DNA from: Ruminococcus flavefaciens
GTDB lineage: Bacteria; Bacillota; Clostridia; Oscillospirales; Ruminococcaceae
DNA: 43,541 nt
Assembly: GCA_902762855.1 (NCBI GenBank)
Contig: CACWPR010000008.1
Span: 1-43,541 of the forward strand
Direction of reading: 5' to 3'
Within the stretch, counting starts at the first letter, position 1, and each line of letters starts with the position of its first letter. Shown here one piece after another: positions 17,592 to 28,647 of the stretch. A program made the translations under genes and the position numbers. Below the pieces are notes generated by a model. The model did no database searches. It saw only the letters and a program-made list of their open reading frames with translations, and was not told the DNA's origin.

Positions 17592-17598
17592 AAGATAA

Positions 17599-17627
17599 GG
17601 GACGCACACTGTGCGTCCCCTTTTATT
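17599..17627 (+). terminator. Intrinsic terminator of the Na/Pi symporter gene
   Basis: GGGACGCAC (17599-17607) pairs with GTGCGTCCC (17611-17619) around ACT, followed by CTTTTATT. Confidence 0.85.
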
Positions 17628-17976: not shown

Positions 17977-18783
17977 TCACTCAATGAATGCTCCGATCTT
18001 TCTAAACTTAGTATAACGTTCTTTCAGCAAAACGTCAATATCTTTTTCGCATTTTTCCGGAATTTTCTGTGACAAATATTCTTTAATATTCTCTGAAATT
18101 TTGTCTAAATCGTTATGTGCTCCTCCGAGAGGTTCTTCAATGATAGTTTCGGCCACTCCGAGAGCCACCATATCCTCTGCTGTGATACGCATTATCTCGC
18201 TTGCTTCCTGCTCACGGGAGGCGTCCTTCCAGAGTATGCTTGCAAATCCACGGGGTGAGAGAACAGAGTACTGAGCGTTCTCCAGCATAGCCAGCTCATC
18301 GCATACTCCCAGAGCCAGCGCACCGCCGCTGCCGCCCTCTCCGAGGACGATGGATATTACAGGTGTACGTATAGTCATGAACTCAGCAATATTCTTTGCA
18401 ATAGCCTCGCCCATTCCCCTTTCCTCAGCGGCAACTCCGCAGAAGGCGCCGGGGGTGTCTATAAAGCATATTACAGGTCTGTGGAACTTCTCTGCCTGAC
18501 GTGCCAGTCTCAGGGCCTTTCTGTAGCCCTCAGGGTGAGGCATTGCGAAGTTGCAGGCCTTGTTTTCGTTTATGTCCCTGCCCTTGACCTGAGCGATAAC
18601 TGTGACAGGGCGGCCGTCCAGACGGGCAATAGCGCCGTAGATAGCCTTGTCGTCGCCGCAGAGACGGTCTCCGTGGAGCTCATAGTAATCTGTGAACACC
18701 AGGGGCATATAATCCTTGATAGTGGGTCTGCCCTTTGTATGAACGAGCTGGAGCCTTTCCCAGGCTGACTTTTTCTCTTCCAT
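17977..18783 (-). CDS. accA: Acetyl-CoA carboxylase carboxyltransferase, alpha subunit
   Basis: 268 residues, crotonase-fold carboxyltransferase half that pairs with AccD to move CO2 from biotin to acetyl-CoA. Visible signatures are F-I-D-T-P-G-A-F-C-G, A-E-E-R-G-M-G-E-A-I-A and G-E-G-G-S-G-G-A-L-A-L-G (oxyanion/CoA loop). It lies 2 bases from the accD stop, implying coupling. It is somewhat shorter than E. coli AccA because it lacks much of the N-terminal extension, as is normal in Clostridia. Confidence 0.95.
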   Translation of the reverse strand: MEEKKSAWERLQLVHTKGRPTIKDYMPLVFTDYYELHGDRLCGDDKAIYGAIARLDGRPVTVIAQVKGRDINENKACNFAMPHPEGYRKALRLARQAEKFHRPVICFIDTPGAFCGVAAEERGMGEAIAKNIAEFMTIRTPVISIVLGEGGSGGALALGVCDELAMLENAQYSVLSPRGFASILWKDASREQEASEIMRITAEDMVALGVAETIIEEPLGGAHNDLDKISENIKEYLSQKIPEKCEKDIDVLLKERYTKFRKIGAFIE

Positions 18784-18785
18784 GG

Positions 18786-19634
18786 TCAGGCCTCCTTTCT
18801 GTCGTAGCCGTGGAGCTTGAGCAGATGTGAGAGTACGCTCCTCATCTTTCCGCGCTCAACTATCATGTCTACGAAACCCTTTTCGTGCATGAACTCAGCA
18901 AGCTGGAAGTCCTCCGGGAGGCGCTGCTTTATGGTGCTCTCGATGACTCTTCTGCCTGCAAAGCCGATAAGTACCTTCGGCTCAGCGATGATAATGTCGC
19001 CCAGTGACGCAAAGCTCGCTGTGACTCCGCCGGTGGTGGGGTCTGTGAGGACTGTTATATAGAGTCCTCCATTGTCGCTGTGGAGCTTGACTGCACCGGA
19101 GGTCTTTGCCATCTGCATAAGTGAAACTATGCCCTCCTGCATACGTGCTCCGCCTGATGCAGTGAACATCACAACAGGAAGTCCATTTTCAGTGGCATAC
19201 TCAAATGCACGGGTTATCTTCTCGCCCACAACGCTGCCCATGCTGCCCATCATATAGCGTGAGTCCATGACTCCAATGACTACCGGAGAGCCCTTTATGG
19301 TGGCAGTACCGGTTATGACAGCATCATTGAGGGATGTGCTCTCCCTGAGCTGTTCCTGCTTCTCGGTATACTCCGGGAAGTCGATAGGGTTGCCGCTTAT
19401 CATATCAGCGTCCATCTCCCTGAAGCTGTCCTTGTCAACGGTAATGGATATACGCTCAGGAGCGGAGAGCCTGCCGTGGTAGTTGCACTTAGGGCAAACT
19501 CTGTGGAGCTCCTCATACCGTGACAGGGGACTGAGCTCCTGACAGCGGGGGCACTTGAACATCGGCGGCTTGTATTCCTCATCGGCGCCGCCGTTGAAAC
19601 GCTTCTTTACTACGTCAAAAAAATCTTCAAACAA
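18786..19634 (-). CDS. accD: Acetyl-CoA carboxylase carboxyltransferase, beta subunit
   Basis: 282 residues with the N-terminal four-Cys zinc finger (C-P-R-C ... C-P-K-C, about residues 28-50) and the crotonase-like core (S-G-G-A-R-M-Q-E-G, T-G-G-V-T-A-S-F-A). The start appears to be TTG at 19634, with a GGTGA sequence 7 bases upstream. The next in-frame Met falls right at the zinc finger and would remove residues normally present, so the TTG start is preferred. The weak start may tune AccD level relative to AccC, whose stop is 39 bases upstream. Confidence 0.92.
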   Translation of the reverse strand: MFEDFFDVVKKRFNGGADEEYKPPMFKCPRCQELSPLSRYEELHRVCPKCNYHGRLSAPERISITVDKDSFREMDADMISGNPIDFPEYTEKQEQLRESTSLNDAVITGTATIKGSPVVIGVMDSRYMMGSMGSVVGEKITRAFEYATENGLPVVMFTASGGARMQEGIVSLMQMAKTSGAVKLHSDNGGLYITVLTDPTTGGVTASFASLGDIIIAEPKVLIGFAGRRVIESTIKQRLPEDFQLAEFMHEKGFVDMIVERGKMRSVLSHLLKLHGYDRKEA

Positions 19635-19673
19635 TCAATTTCACCGCAATTCTGTTAATATTGGCTGGGGAGG

Positions 19674-21029
19674 TCACTTTTTCTTGTGCTCCTCCATATA
19701 TCTTCCCAGGAATCCTATATCGTACTTTCCCTCTCTGAAATCGGGGTTGCGGATGAGTTCGAGCTGAAAGTCGATATTGGTATCAACACCCTCTACGATA
19801 AACTCTGCAAGTGCCCAGGTCATCTTATTTATAGCGTCCTGGCGGTCAGAGCCGTGGGCGATGAGCTTGCTTATCATTGAGTCGTAGTATGGGGTTATGG
19901 TATAGCCCTGATAAACTGCGCCGTCTATACGTATGCCGGGGCCGCCTGGCATATAGAGGGCAGTTATGGTGCCCGGTGAGGGACGGAAGTCCTTATCGGG
20001 GTTCTCTGCGTTGATACGGCACTCTATAGCGTGTCCACGGAGCTCAATGTCCTCCTGCTTTACGCTGAGAGTCATTCCGGAAGCTATCTCTATCTGAGCC
20101 TTTACCAGGTCAAAACCTGATACCTCCTCAGTAATGGGATGCTCGACCTGGATACGGGTGTTCATCTCCATGAAATAGAAGTCACGGTTGTCGTCCACAA
20201 GGAACTCGATAGTGCCGGCATTGTAGTAATTGCACTGCTTTGCGGCAGTTACGGCAGCCTGGCCCATACGCTGTCTCAGGGGTTCGTCAACTATAGGGCT
20301 GGGGCATTCCTCCAGGACCTTCTGATTTCTTCTCTGCATGGAGCAGTCACGCTCACCGAGGTAAACGTAGTTGCCATGCTGGTCAGCGATTATCTGTATC
20401 TCAACATGGTGTGGATTTATGAGGAATTTCTCGATATATACCGAATCGTCACCGAAGAAGTTCTTGGCCTCCTGCTGAGCGGCAGTTATCTGGGACTCCA
20501 GCTCCTCAGAGCTGTCAACTCTTCTGATGCCACGTCCGCCGCCTCCGGCAGAAGCCTTTACCAGCACTGGGTAGCCTGCCTTTTCAGCGAAGGCAGCAGC
20601 CTCCTCCAGGGACTTCACAGCGCCCTTTGTACCTGGTATTACCGGGACTCCGGCAGCAGCCATAGTCTCCTTTGCAGCAGCCTTGTTGCCCAGCATCTCA
20701 ATGGCATGATAGGACGGGCCGATGAAGGTTATATCATTTTTCTCGCAGAGCCTTGCGAAGTCGGCATTCTCCGAGAGAAATCCGAATCCGGGGTGTATGG
20801 CATCTGCACCTGTATTTATAGCAGCCTGAATGATAGCATTCATATTCAGGTAGCTGTCCTTTGTTGCGGGAGGTCCTATGCACACTGCCTCGTCAGCTAT
20901 CTGTGCATGGAGGGAATTTCTGTCAGCAGTGGAATACACTGCAACGCAGCGGACTCCCAGCTCACGGCAGGCACGTATGATACGCACTGCTATCTCTCCC
21001 CTGTTAGCAATAAGTACTTTTCTGAACAT
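19674..21029 (-). CDS. accC: Acetyl-CoA carboxylase, biotin carboxylase subunit
   Basis: A 451-residue ATP-grasp enzyme that carboxylates the biotin of AccB using bicarbonate and ATP. It begins M-F-R-K-V-L-I-A-N-R-G-E-I-A-V-R-I, the family signature. K-A-S-A-G-G-G-G-R-G-I-R is the glycine-rich ATP loop. E-M-N-T-R-I-Q-V-E-H contains the catalytic Glu/Arg residues. Full family length. AAAGGAG lies upstream of the ATG, and fabZ ends 36 bases before it. Confidence 0.95.
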   Translation of the reverse strand: MFRKVLIANRGEIAVRIIRACRELGVRCVAVYSTADRNSLHAQIADEAVCIGPPATKDSYLNMNAIIQAAINTGADAIHPGFGFLSENADFARLCEKNDITFIGPSYHAIEMLGNKAAAKETMAAAGVPVIPGTKGAVKSLEEAAAFAEKAGYPVLVKASAGGGGRGIRRVDSSEELESQITAAQQEAKNFFGDDSVYIEKFLINPHHVEIQIIADQHGNYVYLGERDCSMQRRNQKVLEECPSPIVDEPLRQRMGQAAVTAAKQCNYYNAGTIEFLVDDNRDFYFMEMNTRIQVEHPITEEVSGFDLVKAQIEIASGMTLSVKQEDIELRGHAIECRINAENPDKDFRPSPGTITALYMPGGPGIRIDGAVYQGYTITPYYDSMISKLIAHGSDRQDAINKMTWALAEFIVEGVDTNIDFQLELIRNPDFREGKYDIGFLGRYMEEHKKK

Positions 21030-21065
21030 TTACACTGTTCTCCTTTGTATAAGAGCGGCAGGGAC

Positions 21066-21515
21066 TCAGTCCTTGCTGCCGTCGGTGATGACGAAGGTTA
21101 TCTCGCAGGCAACAGCCTTTTCGCCGCCTACTGAAGCGATACCCTTGCCGACGCCCACAGGGCCTCTCTGACGTATCATCTCGACTTCAAGGTCGAGAAC
21201 GTCGCCGGGGACTACCTGTCTGCGGAACTTAGCCTTGTCGATGCCTCCGAAGAGACCTATCTTACCCTTGAACTCCGGCTTTGAGAGCATACAAACAGCT
21301 CCTGCCTGCGCAAGCATCTCCACCATGAGAACTCCGGGAGTTACGGGATAACCGGGGAAATGACCCTTGAACCAGAAGTCCTCCTCGGTGATATATTTTC
21401 TTGCATGGACCTTCACACCAACTTCCATATCAACAATCTCGTCAATGAGAAGGAATGGGTCACGGTGAGGGATTATTTCCATTATCTGTTCTTTATTCAT
21501 AAGTATATCAGACAT
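21066..21515 (-). CDS. fabZ: 3-hydroxyacyl-ACP dehydratase FabZ
   Basis: A 149-residue hot-dog-fold dehydratase that removes water from 3-hydroxyacyl-ACP in each FASII cycle. I-I-P-H-R-D-P-F-L-L-I-D is the N-terminal signature. G-H-F-P-G-Y-P-V-T-P-G-V-L-M-V-E holds catalytic His52 and Glu66. AAGGAGG precedes the ATG. It follows the paired membrane-protein genes by 14 bases, so they are in one transcript. No separate fabA/fabN is in this window, so how unsaturated chains are made is not shown. Confidence 0.95.
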   Translation of the reverse strand: MSDILMNKEQIMEIIPHRDPFLLIDEIVDMEVGVKVHARKYITEEDFWFKGHFPGYPVTPGVLMVEMLAQAGAVCMLSKPEFKGKIGLFGGIDKAKFRRQVVPGDVLDLEVEMIRQRGPVGVGKGIASVGGEKAVACEITFVITDGSKD

Positions 21516-21529
21516 AAAACTGTCCTCCT

Positions 21530-22345
21530 TCAGATACTTTCCATTTCGTCGTCTATGCCGTCGAATCTGTTGAAATCGTCATATGACCTGACCATTTTAC
21601 TGCCCTCGTAGGTAGTTGTAACAGTCAGCGGTACAAAATCCGGGTAGCCTTCCTTGTCTCTGATGTCCCTGTCGAATTTATCCACCAGCGCCGAGACTGC
21701 GATGATGAGGACAGCGTAAACAGACACAACCGGATTGATCAGAAGGAACGCAGCAGCGCTCATAACAGAGAACCACAGGTTCCAGCGTTCCCTGCGGAAC
21801 ACAAAGAATATCAGAAAAGCGGTACACAGGGCCAGCGCTGCGGCAGACACTCCCATATTAACGGTATATCTGTCCTTCAGCACGATAACGCTTATCAGCA
21901 CCATGACAAAGCCGAGTATGAGAGCGGCAATGGTACCGAAGCTCGCTCCTGTCCTTATCTCATTGCAGCTTGTTACCCTTCCGCCGTATTTACCGCCGAC
22001 TCTGTGGGCGGGCAGCTTTACTATTGTATCGTTGCTGCCGAAGTCAGGGATGATATATCTCAGCAGGAGGTAGAAATAGCCTCCGCCGGCAATGAATGCC
22101 GCTGCCAGATTTATGCCTCCTACGCCCTTGAATATTATGGGTTTCAGGAAAAGGCAAAGGGACATGAGATAGGCCACCACGTACAGCAGACCGTATACGT
22201 CCCTTGCTGCCAGCAGCCGTCCCTTCATCATCTGGTACTGAGACATCATGTTGTTATATTCCACCGCCTCCCGGTACTGCTCAGCACTTGCAGCAGTGAA
22301 CCTTCCGGAGCGGATGATGTCCTGAGTAAGATATTTATAAGTCAT
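21530..22345 (-). CDS. Uncharacterised multi-pass membrane protein in the fatty-acid operon (larger paralogue)
   Basis: 271 residues. A charged N-terminal cytoplasmic part (L-T-Q-D-I-I-R-S-G-R-F) is followed by about six hydrophobic segments (near 51-70, 78-98, 134-156, 164-182, 189-203, 205-221). A polar C-terminal tail carries D-I-R-D-K-E-G-Y-P-D-F-V-P-L (227-240). It shares the start pattern (I/L-T-Q-D-x-I) and the R/D-I-R-D-x-x-G-Y-P-x-F-V-x-L motif with the gene just upstream, so the two are paralogues. The start codon is directly adjacent to that gene's stop with no gap. I do not recognise a family. Location in the FASII operon between accB and fabZ suggests a membrane-lipid-linked role; that is inference. 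Confidence 0.75.
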   Translation of the reverse strand: MTYKYLTQDIIRSGRFTAASAEQYREAVEYNNMMSQYQMMKGRLLAARDVYGLLYVVAYLMSLCLFLKPIIFKGVGGINLAAAFIAGGGYFYLLLRYIIPDFGSNDTIVKLPAHRVGGKYGGRVTSCNEIRTGASFGTIAALILGFVMVLISVIVLKDRYTVNMGVSAAALALCTAFLIFFVFRRERWNLWFSVMSAAAFLLINPVVSVYAVLIIAVSALVDKFDRDIRDKEGYPDFVPLTVTTTYEGSKMVRSYDDFNRFDGIDDEMESI

Positions 22346-22966
22346 TCAGTTTTCCTCTATATCATTATCAATGAGCATAGGACCGCCGGACTTATCCCTG
22401 AACTTATCGAAGCTGTACTCCTCCGCTGTATCATCCATGACTCCGTCCTCAGCGCTCTCCTCGTCCCTGATGTATGAGCCGTTGAGTTGAACGAAATGCG
22501 GGTAGCCCACCTCGTCCCGAATCCGGGAGTCTATCTGGTCCATTTTCCGGAGGATGTAGGTATTAGCCAGGACAAGAATGATAAATGCAGGGTCCAGCAG
22601 AAGCATAGGTAGAGTAAGTCCCAGGCCCAGCCGCCAGATATGTATCCGTCTGAATACGATGAAATAGCCAAAAAGCAGAATATACACCAAAGCCATTACA
22701 AAGCAGAGGGTAAGTCCCATACTGCCCGAATGGTAGACCAGGGAATGCTTCCTTCCCAGGCCGAATGACATCATAAGAGCTATGAACACAGCGTTGAGGC
22801 CCACCATTGCCCAGAAGTCCCGGAGATAGCTCCGGCGCTCTCTTTGCATCCGCAGCATATGGGTGTTGAAATCCTGGACTTCACTGAACATTTCAGCAGA
22901 TGTTATATTTATATGAGCCTGGTCGATGTCATCCTGAGTTATGTATTTCAGCTCCGACAGTTTCAT
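22346..22966 (-). CDS. Uncharacterised membrane protein in the fatty-acid operon (smaller paralogue)
   Basis: 206 residues. The N-terminal cytoplasmic helix region (I-T-Q-D-D-I-D-Q-A-H) precedes three to four hydrophobic segments (near 50-69, 82-105, 112-138). Then comes R-I-R-D-E-V-G-Y-P-H-F-V-Q-L (148-161) and an acidic tail. The start overlaps the accB stop by one base (TAATG) and has no clear ribosome-binding site, so its translation probably depends on ribosomes finishing accB. That coupling ties it closely to acetyl-CoA carboxylase production. It is a paralogue of the next gene, with the same order of motifs but fewer membrane spans. No family recognised. Confidence 0.75.
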   Translation of the reverse strand: MKLSELKYITQDDIDQAHINITSAEMFSEVQDFNTHMLRMQRERRSYLRDFWAMVGLNAVFIALMMSFGLGRKHSLVYHSGSMGLTLCFVMALVYILLFGYFIVFRRIHIWRLGLGLTLPMLLLDPAFIILVLANTYILRKMDQIDSRIRDEVGYPHFVQLNGSYIRDEESAEDGVMDDTAEEYSFDKFRDKSGGPMLIDNDIEEN

Positions 22967-23451
22967 TATCTTATTATCATAACGGGCTCGTCATACTCCA
23001 CAGGCTGACCGTCATCCACAAGTATCTTGTCAACGATGCCATCATAGTCCGACTGTATCTCATTCATGAGCTTCATGGACTCGATTATCATAATAACGTC
23101 GCCCTTCTTGACCTCGTCGCCCACCTTAACGAATGGAGCCTTGTCAGGTGAAGGAGCCGCATAGAATGTGCCGACGATAGGAGCCTTGACCACATTTCCG
23201 CTTATTTCCTCAGCAACGGCAGCCTCGCTCTGTGCGAGAGCGGCCTCAGGTGCAGGAGCTGCGGCAGGAGCCTGAGCGCCCATAAATGGTACAGGCATTA
23301 CCGGCGGAGGTGCCAGAGGTGCCTTCTTGCCCTTCAGGGTGATAGTCTTTTCCCCGTCAGCTATATTGAGCTCGGAGAGCTCCTTCTTGTTGATGATGTC
23401 AGCCAGCTTTTCTATTGTATCAGTATCTACCATACCGAAGATGTCGCTCAT
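22966..23451 (-). CDS. accB: Acetyl-CoA carboxylase biotin carboxyl carrier protein
   Basis: 161 residues. A small N-terminal region, an Ala/Pro-rich flexible linker (about 44-82), then the biotinyl domain (86-161) with E-S-M-K-L-M-N, where Lys127 is the biotin attachment site. It carries carboxybiotin from AccC to the AccA/AccD carboxyltransferase. AGGAGG lies upstream of the ATG. Its stop overlaps the start of the smaller membrane-protein gene. Confidence 0.95.
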   Translation of the reverse strand: MSDIFGMVDTDTIEKLADIINKKELSELNIADGEKTITLKGKKAPLAPPPVMPVPFMGAQAPAAAPAPEAALAQSEAAVAEEISGNVVKAPIVGTFYAAPSPDKAPFVKVGDEVKKGDVIMIIESMKLMNEIQSDYDGIVDKILVDDGQPVEYDEPVMIIR

Positions 23452-23463
23452 TGTTGTTCCTCC

Positions 23464-24720
23464 TTAGTCTGTAACTTTCTTGAAGCAGAGTGTAGCGTTG
23501 TGTCCGCCGAATCCAAGGGAATTGGAAAGTGCAGCACGTACCTCCTGCTGTATATTGCTCTCTGTGCAGTAGTCGAGGTCACATTCCTCATCGGGCACCT
23601 TATAGCCTACGGTGCGGTGGATGAATCCCTCTTCTATGGACTTTGCACATATTATAGCCTCAACAGCACCGGCAGCGCCGAGGAGGTGTCCTATCATGGA
23701 CTTTGTAGAATTTATCTTTACTTTGTGAGCCTGGTCACCGAAAGCCACCTTGATAGCAGCAGTCTCGTACTTGTCATTGAGACCTGTTGATGTACCGTGA
23801 GCGTTGATGTAGTCAACGTCAGCAGGTGTGAGTCCGGCCTCCTGCATAGCAAGGGTCATGCCCATGCCTGCGGCCTCACCGGAAGGCATGGGAGAGGTCA
23901 TGTGGTAGCCGTCGCAGGTAGCGCCGTAGCCGGCTACTTCTGCATATATCTTAGCTCCTCTTGCCTTTGCGTGCTCGTACTCTTCGAGTATGACGATACC
24001 GCTGCCCTCACCGAGGACGAAGCCATTTCTCTCCTTGTCGAAGGGAATAGAGGCTCTCTCCAGGTCATCTGACTTGGTAAGTGCCTTCATATTGGCAAAT
24101 CCGGCATATGTGAACTCAACATTGGTGCTCTCTGTACCGCCTGCAATGGCAGCGTCGAGGTAGCCGTCCTTTATCTTGCGGAAGGCCTCGCCTATTGAGT
24201 GGGTAGCTGTAGCACAGGCTGTAGTAACGTCGAAATTCGCGCCTCTGAATCCGGTCTTCATTGAAATAGTGCCGGCAGCCATATTGCTTATCATCATGGG
24301 GATATAGAAGGCAGACATTCTGTCCGGACCTTTTTCGAGGTACTTGTTGTACTCAACAAGGGTAAGGTCGATGCCGCCGATGCCTGAGCCTACGATTACT
24401 CCCGCCCTGTAAGGGTCGAGGTCCGAAAAATCAGTACCTGCATCCTCAAGAGCCTCATGGGCAGCTACCAGAGCGAACTTAGTGAATCTGTCCATACGTC
24501 TTGCTTCCTTCTTGTCAAAGCATCCCTTAACGCCGAAATATGCCGTCTCGTCGAAATCTCTTACTGTTCCGGCTATCTTGACACCTGTGCGCTGGGTATC
24601 AAAACGGTCTATGAAAGAGAAGCCTATCCTGTTCTCCTTTACTCCTGTCCAGAATTTTTCAACTCCGGTACCGAGGGGCGTGACAGCACCCATTCCGGTA
24701 ATTACAACTCTTCTGCTCAT
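23464..24720 (-). CDS. fabF: 3-oxoacyl-ACP synthase II (FabF)
   Basis: A 418-residue thiolase-fold condensing enzyme for chain elongation. Catalytic Cys169 lies in T-T-A-C-A-T-A, His308 in N-A-H-G-T-S-T, and His345 in K-S-M-I-G-H-L-L-G, the complete C-H-H triad of FabF/FabB enzymes. Normal length (about 410). It follows fabG by 39 bases and precedes accB by 12. Confidence 0.95.
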   Translation of the reverse strand: MSRRVVITGMGAVTPLGTGVEKFWTGVKENRIGFSFIDRFDTQRTGVKIAGTVRDFDETAYFGVKGCFDKKEARRMDRFTKFALVAAHEALEDAGTDFSDLDPYRAGVIVGSGIGGIDLTLVEYNKYLEKGPDRMSAFYIPMMISNMAAGTISMKTGFRGANFDVTTACATATHSIGEAFRKIKDGYLDAAIAGGTESTNVEFTYAGFANMKALTKSDDLERASIPFDKERNGFVLGEGSGIVILEEYEHAKARGAKIYAEVAGYGATCDGYHMTSPMPSGEAAGMGMTLAMQEAGLTPADVDYINAHGTSTGLNDKYETAAIKVAFGDQAHKVKINSTKSMIGHLLGAAGAVEAIICAKSIEEGFIHRTVGYKVPDEECDLDYCTESNIQQEVRAALSNSLGFGGHNATLCFKKVTD

Positions 24721-24759
24721 ATTTTTTCCTTTCAGTTTATCTGTATTTATAGGCTGGCA

Positions 24760-25500
24760 TCACATGGAGATACCGCCGGATATTTCAATGACCTGTCCTG
24801 TAACATAGGATGCGTCATCTGAAACAAGGAATGACACCACAGAGGCTATCTCTTCGGGCTCGCCGTAGCGCTTCATAGCTACGACTTCAAGCATCCTGGC
24901 CTTCAGCTCGTCACTGAGAACGTCGGTCATGGGGGTGCGGATAAGTCCCGGAGCAACGGCATTGCAGGTGATGTTCTTCTTGCCGTACTCCTTTGCGATA
25001 GTCTTGGTCATGCCTATCATAGCGGCCTTGGAAGCCGAGTAATTTATCTGTCCGGGGTTGCCGTAGAGACCTGCCACAGATGCAACGTTGACGATGCGTC
25101 CGAATTTCTGTTTCATCATAATGGGGCAGGTGTGCTTGAGCATATTGAAAACGCTCTTCTGGTTAACAGCGATAACTGCGTCGTACTCGTCCTCTGACAT
25201 ACGTGCAAGGAGCTTATCCTTGGTGATGCCTGCGTTGTTCACGAGTGCTTCGATAGTGCCGAAGGTCTCCTTGACAGCCTTGACCATAGCCTCACAGTCA
25301 GCCATTTTTGAGACGTCTGCCGGGAATATCTCAGCCTTGACACCGAGAGCACGGCATTCCTCGGCGACTTCAGCAGCCTTGGCCTTGTCGCCTTCACTGG
25401 GGTAGTAATTGACGGCGATGTCAAAGCCGTCCTTAGCGAGTCTTTTTGCGATGCAGGCGCCGATTCCCTGAGAGGCGCCGGTTACTAATGCTGTTGGCAT
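24760..25500 (-). CDS. fabG: 3-oxoacyl-ACP reductase (FabG)
   Basis: A 246-residue SDR-family NADPH-dependent reductase. G-A-S-Q-G-I-G (8-14) binds cofactor, N-N-A-G (88-91) supports the core, and the catalytic Ser141, Tyr154 and Lys158 are present (Y-S-A-S-K). The start is ATG 25500, because GGAGG lies 8 bases upstream; the longer frame starting at 25515 would include the ribosome-binding site itself. Standard FASII position after fabK. Confidence 0.94.
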   Translation of the reverse strand: MPTALVTGASQGIGACIAKRLAKDGFDIAVNYYPSEGDKAKAAEVAEECRALGVKAEIFPADVSKMADCEAMVKAVKETFGTIEALVNNAGITKDKLLARMSEDEYDAVIAVNQKSVFNMLKHTCPIMMKQKFGRIVNVASVAGLYGNPGQINYSASKAAMIGMTKTIAKEYGKKNITCNAVAPGLIRTPMTDVLSDELKARMLEVVAMKRYGEPEEIASVVSFLVSDDASYVTGQVIEISGGISM

Positions 25501-25543
25501 AATGTTTACCTCCATTTATTTCAATGAGCGTCCGTGGACATTC

Positions 25544-26470
25544 TCAAAGTTTGAGCAGCTTTTCAGCTCCGTCGTTTATCTCCCTTACGATGTCAGCGCA
25601 GGACTTCACTTCATTAATCATACCTGCGATAGCGCCGCAGAGGAAGGAGCCGCTTTCGAGGTCGCCGTCAACAACGGCTCTGCGGAGAGCGCCTACAGTA
25701 AGGTTCTCGAACTCCTCCGGTGAAAGTGTACCGTCCTTCTCGCCGTTTGCCAGTTTCTTAGCGAACTTGGTCTTGACGTTTCTGCACGGATGTCCTGTAT
25801 AGCGTCCTGTTACAACGCTGTCTGTATCCTTTGCCTTTATTACTAGGTCCTTGAAAGTCGGATGTATCTGGCACTCCTCAGAAGCAAGGAAGCGTGTGCC
25901 TATCTGTACGCCCTCAGCTCCCAGCATAAAGGAAGCGGCCATGCCTCTGCCGTCAGCGATACCGCCGGCAGCGATAACGGGGATGCTTACAGCATCCACC
26001 ACCTGAGGTACCAGGCACATTGTAGTATTCTCACCAATATGTCCGCCTGACTCTGTGCCCTCAGCGATAACAGCGTCAGCGCCGGACTTTTCCATTCTCT
26101 TTGCAAGTGCAACGGAAGGAACTACAGGGATGACCCTGATACCTGCCTCTTTCCACGCAGGGACGTACTTTCCGGGGTTGCCTGCACCGGTAGTGACGAC
26201 CTTTACCCCCTCATCTATGACGAGCTGAGCCAGGTCGTCAGCATTAGGGCTCATGAGCATGATATTCACGCCGAAGGGCTTATCGGTCTTTTCCTTGCAG
26301 AGCCTTATCTGCTCACGAAGATAGTCGATAGGAGCGTTTCCGCCGGCGATGAGTCCGACACCGCCTGCATTTGAAACAGCAGATGCCAGTGTATGCTCAG
26401 CTACCCAGGCCATGCCGCCCTGGATTATGGGGTATTCGCATCCTAAGAGTTCTGTGATCCTTGTTTTCAT
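25544..26470 (-). CDS. fabK: Enoyl-ACP reductase II (FabK), flavin-dependent
   Basis: A 308-residue FMN TIM-barrel enzyme of the NPD/FabK family, catalysing the last reduction of the FASII cycle. C-E-Y-P-I-I-Q-G-G-M-A-W opens the barrel; G-T-E-S-G-G-H-I-G and G-A-E-G-V-Q-I-G-T-R-F are the FMN phosphate and catalytic loops. No FabI-type enzyme occurs in this operon, so FabK is probably the main enoyl reductase; FabK enzymes are known to tolerate triclosan. A related nitronate monooxygenase is unlikely given the operon. Confidence 0.92.
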   Translation of the reverse strand: MKTRITELLGCEYPIIQGGMAWVAEHTLASAVSNAGGVGLIAGGNAPIDYLREQIRLCKEKTDKPFGVNIMLMSPNADDLAQLVIDEGVKVVTTGAGNPGKYVPAWKEAGIRVIPVVPSVALAKRMEKSGADAVIAEGTESGGHIGENTTMCLVPQVVDAVSIPVIAAGGIADGRGMAASFMLGAEGVQIGTRFLASEECQIHPTFKDLVIKAKDTDSVVTGRYTGHPCRNVKTKFAKKLANGEKDGTLSPEEFENLTVGALRRAVVDGDLESGSFLCGAIAGMINEVKSCADIVREINDGAEKLLKL

Positions 26471-26487
26471 TCCGTTTTCTCCTTATA

Positions 26488-27480
26488 TCAGTATTCTAGG
26501 ATTATCCCGCCGTATGTCAGACCTGAGCCGAAGCCTATCAGAGCGAGTTTCTGACCTCTCTGGACAAGGCCTTTTTCAATGGCCTCTCCGAGAGCGAGAG
26601 GGATAGACGCACTTGACGTATTTCCATAGTGGTCAAGAGTTGTTATGAATTTATCCATTGGAGCGCCGAGCTTTTTGGCGGCGGTCTCAATAATGCGTAT
26701 ATTAGCCTGATGAGGGATGAACCAGTCGATGTCATCCTTTGTGATGCCTATTTTTCCGGCTGCAAGTTCAAAGGACTTAGGGAGTGCCTGAGTTGCGAAC
26801 TTGTATACCTCCTTGCCGTTCTGGCGGAGCTTGTGGAGGGGGCTGTCCTCGAAGTCGGAAGTGAAGTCAGCAGGCGGGTCCTGAGCTATCTCCGGAGCTA
26901 CCTGCATAGCTCTTGCATAGAGGTATTTTCCGCCGCTGCCGTCTGAGCCGAGAGCAGAGGAGTAGAGCTTGTCGCTGTACTCCACAACAGCCGCTGCAGC
27001 ACCGTCACCGAAGAGGATGCATGAACCTCTGTCAGTAAAGTCGAGAAAACGTGAAAGGGATTCGTTAGCTGAAACTAACACATATTTAATTGTCCTGTCA
27101 GTTTCCAGGAATCTTCTGGCCACATCAAGTGCATAAACGAAGCCCGTGCAGGCTGCATTCAGGTCAAAGGCGCCTGCATTTACCGCACCTGTCTCGTACT
27201 GTATAACGCTGGCCATACTGGGGGTATGGAAGTCTGCAGTAGCAGTGGTGGAAATAACAAGGCCTATCTCAGCAGGGTCTATACCAGCCTTTTCAATAGC
27301 CTCCAGGGAAGCCTTTTTACCCATATACCATGTGGGCTCCCAGCCTGCCATAGGGCGGCTGACGATACCGGTCCTTGTCCTTATCCACTCGTCATTCGTC
27401 TCAATAAACCGGGTAAAATCGTCATTTGTCAGTACCTGCTCAGGGACGTATTTTCCCATTCCCAGAATGTTGATTCCCAT
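26488..27480 (-). CDS. fabH: 3-oxoacyl-ACP synthase III (FabH)
   Basis: A 330-residue initiating condensing enzyme joining an acyl-CoA primer with malonyl-ACP. The triad is Cys111 (A-A-C-T-G-F), His257 (I-P-H-Q-A-N) and Asn287 (H-Y-G-N-T-S-S). First gene of the minus-strand FASII operon. AAGGAG precedes its ATG. About 250 bases separate it from divergent fabD; that gap holds two long palindromes. Primer preference (straight or branched) cannot be told from the sequence, although branched primers could come from a Vor-type oxidoreductase. Confidence 0.95.
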   Translation of the reverse strand: MGINILGMGKYVPEQVLTNDDFTRFIETNDEWIRTRTGIVSRPMAGWEPTWYMGKKASLEAIEKAGIDPAEIGLVISTTATADFHTPSMASVIQYETGAVNAGAFDLNAACTGFVYALDVARRFLETDRTIKYVLVSANESLSRFLDFTDRGSCILFGDGAAAAVVEYSDKLYSSALGSDGSGGKYLYARAMQVAPEIAQDPPADFTSDFEDSPLHKLRQNGKEVYKFATQALPKSFELAAGKIGITKDDIDWFIPHQANIRIIETAAKKLGAPMDKFITTLDHYGNTSSASIPLALGEAIEKGLVQRGQKLALIGFGSGLTYGGIILEY

Positions 27481-27732: not shown

Positions 27733-28647
27733 ATGACAATTTCACTATTTTCAGGACAGGGCTCCCAGACTCCCGGAATGGGCGGAGATATTATTGCCGC
27801 AGTACCGGAAGTTGCAGAGATATATGAGGCCGGCTCCGACATCCTGGGCATGGACCTGAAGGCTGTTTGCCTGGACGCACCTGCCGAGGAGCTCTCCCGG
27901 ACCATAAACTCCCAGCCTGCTATAATGGCTACATCCATGGCCTGCCTGAAGGCAGCCCAGCTCCGGGGATTTGAGTTTGACGGTGTTGCCGGACACTCCC
28001 TTGGTGAGTACGCTGCAATGTACGCCTCCGGAATGGTATCCCTTGAGGACGCTTTTCGCTTGATAAAGGCAAGAGCAGCCGCTATGGAGGAGGCCGTCTC
28101 ACAGACTAAGGGTGCTATGGCAGCAGTAATGAAGCTGGAGCCCGCAAAGGTGGAGGAAGTATGCGCCGCCGCACAGAATTTCGTCACCGCAGTAAACTAC
28201 AACTCCCCTGTACAGACAGTTATCGCAGGCACTCCCGAAGGCATTGAGGAGGTAACTCCCATATTCAAGGAAATGAAGGGCAGAGTCATCCCCCTCAACG
28301 TAGCCGGCGCATTCCATTCAAAGCTGATGCAGCCTGCTGCTGACCTTTTCTACGAGACTGCAAAGACAATAAACTTCTCCGCACCGGACAAGAAGTACTA
28401 CTCCAACGTTACCGGCGGAGAGCTCACCGACTTCTCAGACATGGCATCAATGCTTGCAAAGCACATCGTATCCCCCGTCCGCTTCACCTCAGAGCTCATG
28501 GCAATGAGCCAGGCCGGAGCTGACAGATTCGTTGAATTCGGTCCCGGCAGGACCCTCACAGGCCTTGTGAAGAAAACTCTCCCTGAGGCTGCCGCATTCA
28601 ACGTTGAAAATATGGAAACACTCGAAGGAGCTGCTATTTATGAGTAA
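27733..28647 (+). CDS. fabD: Malonyl-CoA:ACP transacylase (FabD)
   Basis: A 304-residue enzyme loading malonyl groups on acyl carrier protein. F-S-G-Q-G-S-Q-T-P-G-M-G opens the protein and G-H-S-L-G-E-Y-A-A holds the nucleophilic Ser with the family motif. G-A-F-H-S-K-L-M contains the partner His. GAAAGGAAG before the ATG is the ribosome-binding site. It is the only core FASII gene here outside the minus-strand operon, being transcribed divergently and followed by aroE with an 8-base overlap. Divergence from fabH would still permit joint control from the shared intergenic region. Confidence 0.95.
   Translation: MTISLFSGQGSQTPGMGGDIIAAVPEVAEIYEAGSDILGMDLKAVCLDAPAEELSRTINSQPAIMATSMACLKAAQLRGFEFDGVAGHSLGEYAAMYASGMVSLEDAFRLIKARAAAMEEAVSQTKGAMAAVMKLEPAKVEEVCAAAQNFVTAVNYNSPVQTVIAGTPEGIEEVTPIFKEMKGRVIPLNVAGAFHSKLMQPAADLFYETAKTINFSAPDKKYYSNVTGGELTDFSDMASMLAKHIVSPVRFTSELMAMSQAGADRFVEFGPGRTLTGLVKKTLPEAAAFNVENMETLEGAAIYE

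Follow-up and report, generated by a model that had tools for sequence, protein, structure and literature searches.

The fab-acc operon of Ruminococcus flavefaciens carries, between accB and fabZ, two genes for paralogous membrane proteins, P1 and P2, and this pair is real, conserved and unnamed. Of 58 Ruminococcus genomes, 28 carry genes of this family at the same position, so the pair is not confined to one strain. Sequence comparison places P1 and P2 in a wider set of Ruminococcaceae membrane proteins, here termed 'GxPxF' and otherwise unnamed, and we tentatively read them as membrane partners of acetyl-CoA carboxylase (ACC). The locus was analysed in a 43,541-nucleotide stretch of DNA, referred to here as the window.

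The pair within the fab-acc operon

According to the ORF list and translations, the fab-acc operon is of standard make-up except that the P1 and P2 genes separate accB from fabZ. The features considered here are all on the minus strand:

17977..27480, minus: fab-acc run fabH-fabK-fabG-fabF-accB-P1-P2-fabZ-accC-accD-accA, gene order by tblastn
22966..23451, minus: accB, biotin carboxyl carrier protein (Biotin_lipoyl 6.7e-22); its stop overlaps the P1 start
22346..22966, minus: P1, 206 aa, subtype B; N-terminal part, about 4 predicted TM helices, GYPHF motif, acidic tail
22925..22942, minus: P1 N-terminal motif ITQDDI (translation; conserved in the family)
22490..22522, minus: P1 post-membrane motif IRDEVGYPHFV (translation, alignment)
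21530..22345, minus: P2, 271 aa, subtype C; P1-like with extra membrane segments, C-terminal end DDEMESI
22313..22330, minus: P2 N-terminal motif LTQDII (translation, alignment)
21632..21664, minus: P2 post-membrane motif IRDKEGYPDFV (translation, alignment)
21533..21553, minus: C-terminal end of P2, DDEMESI, similar to the M[DE]x[IL] endings of part of the wider relatives
21066..21515, minus: fabZ, next gene downstream of P2 (FabA-like 2.2e-28)

The description of P1 draws on the open reading frame and its translation, hydropathy, the family tree, the alignment and low-confidence AF2 helices. The initial annotation had placed two genes of 206 and 271 residues between accB and fabZ, which is confirmed by the open reading frames and by the Pfam matches of AccB and FabZ; the other Fab and Acc names in the run are those we take to apply from the sequences. 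Promoter-like sites upstream of fabH and a terminator-like stem beyond accA (17597-17621) are consensus matches only. An independent promoter for P1 and P2 was considered and rejected, the region containing only consensus matches, 16 of them against 11.0 (sd 3.3) in shuffles. A presumably fabD-like gene (27733-28647, plus strand) stands divergent from the operon and not within it, and the size of the fabK-fabG gap varies widely among genomes.

The accB stop and the P1 start have one base in common (TAATG) and the P1 start has no Shine-Dalgarno match of at least 4 nt, in agreement with the earlier statement that P1 overlaps the accB stop without a ribosome-binding site of its own. P2 begins directly after the P1 TGA stop, and to the earlier description of a gapless junction we add a weak AGGA 7 nt upstream of P2. 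The fabZ gene of the window has its own strong Shine-Dalgarno sequence, AAGGAGG, 8 nt upstream.

The proposed paralogy of P1 and P2 is upheld by BLASTP similarity beyond chance (E = 5e-7 in the N-terminal half and 7e-7 in the C-terminal half), at an identity of merely 27-30%, which makes the paralogy distant. In searches of the own-genome or genus set, P1 as query finds P2 at E 9.3e-5 and 8.7e-4, and P2 as query finds P1 at E 2.2e-4 and 2.8e-3. Both translations contain the two shared motifs that had been described, I/L-T-Q-D-x-I near the N terminus and I-R-D-x-x-G-Y-P-x-F-V after the membrane part. The window genes are most similar to those of genomes G024 and G040 (P2 60% in G024; P1 53% in G040 and 48% in G024).

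Both proteins had been called unrecognised, and profile searches of four libraries agree: Pfam and NCBIfam gave no family above cut-off, and PADLOC and PHROGs gave nothing at E ≤ 0.1. A defence or phage origin was rejected on the lack of matches in the latter two. The family profile had its best match to PDB sequences at E 0.089, none close, and for neither AF2 model did Foldseek find a PDB match at E ≤ 0.001. Searches of an open-access library brought up no paper on the pair, although one may still exist.

A tree of 56 proteins, together with the alignment, divides the family into subtypes A, B and C, of which the window's P1 belongs to B and its P2 to C. Common to nearly all members are the N-terminal segment Y[IL]TQxxIxxGxxN[IV]TSxEMxxExxx[YF]N, the membrane helices and GYPxFxxL, and most have a tail with [FY]Dx[YFI][RKN]. 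Over 54 sequences, with segment borders set by us, mean conservation reaches 0.59 for the N-terminal part, 0.51 for the post-membrane stretch and 0.47 for the tail. The helix segments score lower, at 0.35, 0.43 and 0.42, and contain few strongly conserved residues (N135 of P1 among them). From the alignment, we read the higher conservation outside the helices as that of an anchor with a binding surface, not of a transporter.

The earlier description of multi-pass membrane proteins also stands: hydropathy gives four segments in P1 and five in P2; some of these overlap and some could span the membrane twice, so the predicted count of about 4-6 helices is an estimate. Hydropathy and the AF2 models concur in predicting a helical membrane domain in each protein, the models being weak (P1: pLDDT 57.6, pTM 0.44, alignment of 4 rows; P2: pLDDT 60.5, pTM 0.50, alignment of 7 rows). 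Both models have a long first helix that continues into the membrane domain and a low-confidence tail. The only two strands in the P2 model, 15-18 and 241-244, lie one on either side of the membrane domain and may pair with each other. The charge distribution fits an N-in/C-in arrangement with both termini probably cytosolic. The N-terminal and post-membrane segments are both found in the slot family and its closest relatives and are both absent from most other aligned relatives; this joint presence and absence fits the formation of one small cytosolic module by the two.

Occupancy of the accB-fabZ slot

The slot was followed through a sample of 60 Ruminococcus genomes, the window's own included, drawn from a larger group. 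Relatives at E ≤ 1e-3 were found in 29 of these genomes with P1 as query and in 18 with P2. AccB was found in 59 of the genomes and FabZ in 58; of 63 stretches read, 62 retrieved ones and the window itself, 57 contain both genes without a break. A tree of Fab and Acc proteins was built for 58 genomes, G037 and G047 being unusable and the second fabZ contig of G015 being left out. Across these 58, the slot holds family genes in 28 (those of G040 are split across two contigs), a soluble gene in six, a Uma2-like gene in one (G029, L113 6115-6726) and nothing in 23, G049 and G029 having been assigned by hand to the soluble-gene and Uma2 classes, respectively. Two family genes are present in 22 of the 28 occupied slots, three in one and one in five. 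The fewest state changes on the operon tree are 5 for family versus non-family content and 8 for four states, and with these minima the trait looks old in Ruminococcus, with later losses and replacements.

The soluble gene, about 177 aa (up to 178 codons) and unrelated to the family, occupies the slot at loci L099, L111, L118, L121, L122 and L123; two of the six were scanned against Pfam, with no match above cut-off. Together with the Uma2-like gene, this makes seven Ruminococcus genomes with an unrelated gene in the slot. A search for decayed family remnants in the accB-fabZ gaps of 10 genomes gave nothing convincing (best E 0.041). Replacement of YqhY/Asp23 by P1 and P2 was also considered; since Asp23 (YqhY family) is present in all 60 genus genomes, the pair does not replace it and this idea was ruled out. 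A family gene also occurs away from the fab-acc operon in three genomes (G043, G059 and G005).

We further note two unusual loci. The second family gene of G041 (L076 10527-10889) encodes 120 aa without the middle membrane part and retains the N-terminal motif and GYPxF. A second fabZ-accC-accD contig of G015 (contig C47, L088) carries two family genes and may be assembly contamination.

The tight junction with accB recurs across the genus. Of the 27 measurable loci, 25 have the start of the first family gene within -4 to +3 nt of the accB stop, 21 of them with an overlap, and the other two have it at +11 and +39. Shine-Dalgarno matches of at least 4 nt precede none of the 27 first family genes, 15 of 22 second family genes and all 27 fabZ genes. 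The junction is common to the divergent subtypes A, B and C. Among 15 close pairs, the 12 with computable dS have dN/dS of 0.07-0.30, indicating purifying selection; the window genes versus G024 are among the three saturated pairs, for which dS is not computable. The soluble gene likewise starts close to the accB stop, at -1 in G039, G049 and G052 (where its ORF is cut short) and at +4 in G027 and G051, and G002 has an ATG at +4 but a listed ORF that begins later in another frame. Because an unrelated soluble gene is also tightly joined to accB, the tight junction alone is no proof of partnership.

Outside the genus, a family profile (A3) was searched against 247 genomes of the taxonomic family and 295 of the order, and matches at E ≤ 0.01 were obtained in 20 and 18 of these, respectively, own genome included. 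The best matches outside the genus are in G503 (1.1e-15), G143 (1.5e-12), G245 (7.8e-11), G068 (1.0e-9) and G107 (1.1e-7), and the family-like N-terminal segment is present in four of these five, G245 being the exception. A profile of three of these four aligns with the slot family at an hhalign E of 3.6e-14. The accB-fabZ slot itself is empty in G143, G068 and G107, with their family relatives located elsewhere.

Thirty genomes of other genera were hand-picked for AccB, and 24 of the 30 returned loci were read (23 genomes). FabF, AccB and FabZ are in one piece in 18 of these genomes, with an accB-fabZ gap of at most 100 bp in 17; in the eighteenth (G079) the slot carries a gene for an esterase-like alpha/beta hydrolase (L169 2005-2814). 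The remaining five have accB adjoining accC without fabZ (three genomes) or no such cluster (two). The earlier assertion that accB directly before fabZ is the standard order is thus true of 17 of 18 genomes, and from this count we regard the insertion as a Ruminococcus genus trait. An extension of the pair across Oscillospiraceae was not found in these 18 slots.

A wider group of GxPxF membrane proteins

The wider relatives of the slot family have a membrane core and G-x-P-x-F after the last helix, and most of those aligned lack the N-terminal ITQ...NIT segment. P164 and F166 are invariant, and G162 is present in at least 90%, of 37 aligned sequences that include P1 and P2. A profile of 12 non-FASII members of the group (A4) aligns with the slot family at an hhalign E of 1.2e-10, and a single Rnf-linked protein does so at 4.1e-9, against E 0.2 and 0.44 for two single unrelated membrane proteins used as controls. 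At E ≤ 0.05, A4 has matches in 55 of the 60 genus genomes, up to six per genome, and finds slot genes in 12 of the 28 genomes with family genes there. A combined profile (A6), some rows of which come from the same genomes as were searched, matches, at E ≤ 1e-3, 35 of 197 genomes at the level of the taxonomic family and 22 of 391 at that of the class; 19 of these 22 class-level matches lie outside the family and are weak (best E 1.7e-7).

The window's own genome has at least two further GxPxF copies, on contigs C18 and C41. The C18 copy (L005 5198-5752) lies downstream of rnf genes, as does a member at L162 5668-6222, the neighbours being what we take to be rnfG, E, A and B. The C41 copy (L156 5740-6369) lies beside nuoE/nuoF/hydrogenase-like genes, named on our assumption from their sequences, and similar placements occur at L161, L164 and L150; these linked members have M[DE]x[IL] in the tail, at the very end in L164 and L150. 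Further members lie beside yifB-like genes (L146, L148, L153, L159, L143, L144 and L131), several of them near rpoB-like and ftsW/rodA-like genes, and other recurring neighbours are phosphodiesterase-like, lysozyme-like and rpsF/ssb-like genes, all of these names being presumed from sequence.

Of 32 other relatives, 12 end in M[DE]x[ILV] (shuffle mean 0.08, maximum 3), and so do 8 of the 55 slot-family proteins (mean of 0.16 in shuffles, at most 2). These counts are not independent events, because the motif was noticed before testing and the sequences are related. The eight slot-family proteins comprise seven ending in MES[IL], P2 included, and one of the other 48; P1 is without the motif. The seven were picked by that ending, and the tree joins the same seven with support 0.94. 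Sought anywhere in the tail, the motif occurs in 8 slot-family proteins, within the range of shuffles (maximum 10), and in 21 of the others, above it (maximum 8). As a mark of the whole slot family, the motif was not borne out outside type C.

Candidate roles for the pair

What controls the pace of the first step in fatty-acid synthesis of Gram-positive gut bacteria is, to our knowledge, little understood. PMC5437119 says the same of Bacillus subtilis. The reading we tentatively prefer, at somewhat below an even chance, is that P1 and P2 form a membrane tether or attenuator of ACC, resembling CTI and YhcB in action and probably unrelated to them. The pair is coupled to accB, most conserved in its putative cytosolic parts, usually present as two genes and embedded in a lipid-synthesis operon, and this combination fits such a role. 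The paralogues P1 and P2 would be inner-membrane proteins translated from the fab-acc transcript, with translation of P1 coupled to that of AccB by stop and restart. One small cytosolic docking module, carried on a membrane anchor, would probably be made up of the conserved N-terminal stretch Y[IL]TQxxIxxGxxNITSxEMxxExxxYN, the post-membrane GYPxFxxL and the tail. The two proteins would assemble together and hold ACC at the membrane through AccB or another subunit, and ACC held there would set the entry of malonyl-CoA into FASII. We infer each of these steps: the shared transcript, topology, docking module, partner, assembly and effect. If true, the AccB-coupled pair would be an independent solution to the docking of ACC at the membrane, written into the operon itself.

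Proteins acting on ACC in comparable ways are known elsewhere. The plant CTI proteins, of which Arabidopsis has three related copies, are described in PMC7712654 as small membrane proteins that dock ACC at the envelope and attenuate fatty-acid synthesis. As described there, CTI has a single transmembrane domain and a coiled coil and binds the alpha-carboxyltransferase subunit, whereas P1 and P2 have no Pfam family above cut-off. In E. coli, YhcB, a protein with a transmembrane domain, binds AccA, a subunit of ACC, and has been associated with reduced fatty-acid synthesis; the interaction was seen in early stationary phase (PMC12977641). The B. subtilis protein YqhY (Asp23 family) is encoded with accBC and is thought to inhibit ACC (PMC5437119). 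In contrast to YqhY, P1 and P2 have no Asp23 domain (PF03780) among their Pfam matches at E ≤ 5. By analogy, P1 and P2 would at most work like CTI, YhcB or YqhY, with no sign of family membership found. YhcB has one transmembrane domain and differs from P1 and P2 in length and architecture. The pneumococcal fabKDGF-accB-fabZ-accCDA operon has the same gene order around the slot, and no gene is named between accB and fabZ in the passages of PMC4996995 that describe it.

Several observations count against the tether: non-family genes in the slot, 23 empty slots among 58, copies outside the operon, closest relatives outside the genus that lie elsewhere, relatives beside non-lipid genes, Asp23 in all 60 genomes and no significant fold match. 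The suggestion of the initial annotation that the pair is a membrane partner for lipid synthesis is only partly sustained, being favoured by the accB-tight slot in 28 of 58 genomes and opposed by the relatives beside non-lipid genes and the unrelated slot genes.

The strongest rival, which we hold nearly as probable as the tether, is that the accB-fabZ junction is permissive, tolerating extra genes and giving them steady co-expression, and that the pair has a general envelope role with no link to fatty acids. Under this reading one would place the unrelated slot genes of seven Ruminococcus genomes and of one genome of another genus, the soluble gene that likewise overlaps or nearly abuts the accB stop, the relatives beside Rnf, hydrogenase, rpoB/yifB, lysozyme-like and rpsF/ssb-like genes, and the family copies outside the operon in three genomes. 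However, 28 of 58 genomes have family genes at precisely this site, 25 of 27 loci retain the tight accB junction although subtypes A, B and C have diverged, and close pairs are under purifying selection, all of which argue against a merely tolerant site.

That the pair is a sensor of membrane state, its helices sensing lipid packing or thickness and its cytosolic module signalling to FASII enzymes, we consider unlikely. Polytopic proteins with conserved cytosolic parts and faster-changing helices, encoded in a lipid-synthesis operon, are compatible with a sensor, but there is no recognisable output domain in Pfam or NCBIfam, and strongly conserved helix residues are few (N135 of P1 among them). 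A small transporter or enzyme for acyl chains, whether for export or flipping, is very improbable: it would suit polytopic proteins adjoining FASII genes, but the most strongly conserved residues are outside the helices, only about 4-6 helices are predicted, no such family was found above cut-off and no PDB chain below E 0.089. Acyl export, an option raised by the initial annotation, is disfavoured specifically by the pattern of conservation, which is lower in the membrane helices than in the putative cytosolic parts.

The ACC tether could also be one case of a broader scheme, which we advance as a conjecture and think improbable as a whole. Ruminococcaceae would own a private group of membrane adaptors, whose copies in the fatty-acid/ACC, Rnf, hydrogenase and rpoB-yifB loci each hold the product of a neighbouring gene at the membrane through lineage-specific cytosolic parts, many of them ending in an M[DE]x[IL] peptide that would serve a common partner. 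In this scheme, the role of the pair coupled to AccB would be to place or throttle ACC. Even if the ACC role is false, the analysis brings to light an unnamed group of membrane proteins, which 55 of the 60 genus genomes match at E ≤ 0.05. At L131 and L144, apparently three members of this group lie in tandem.
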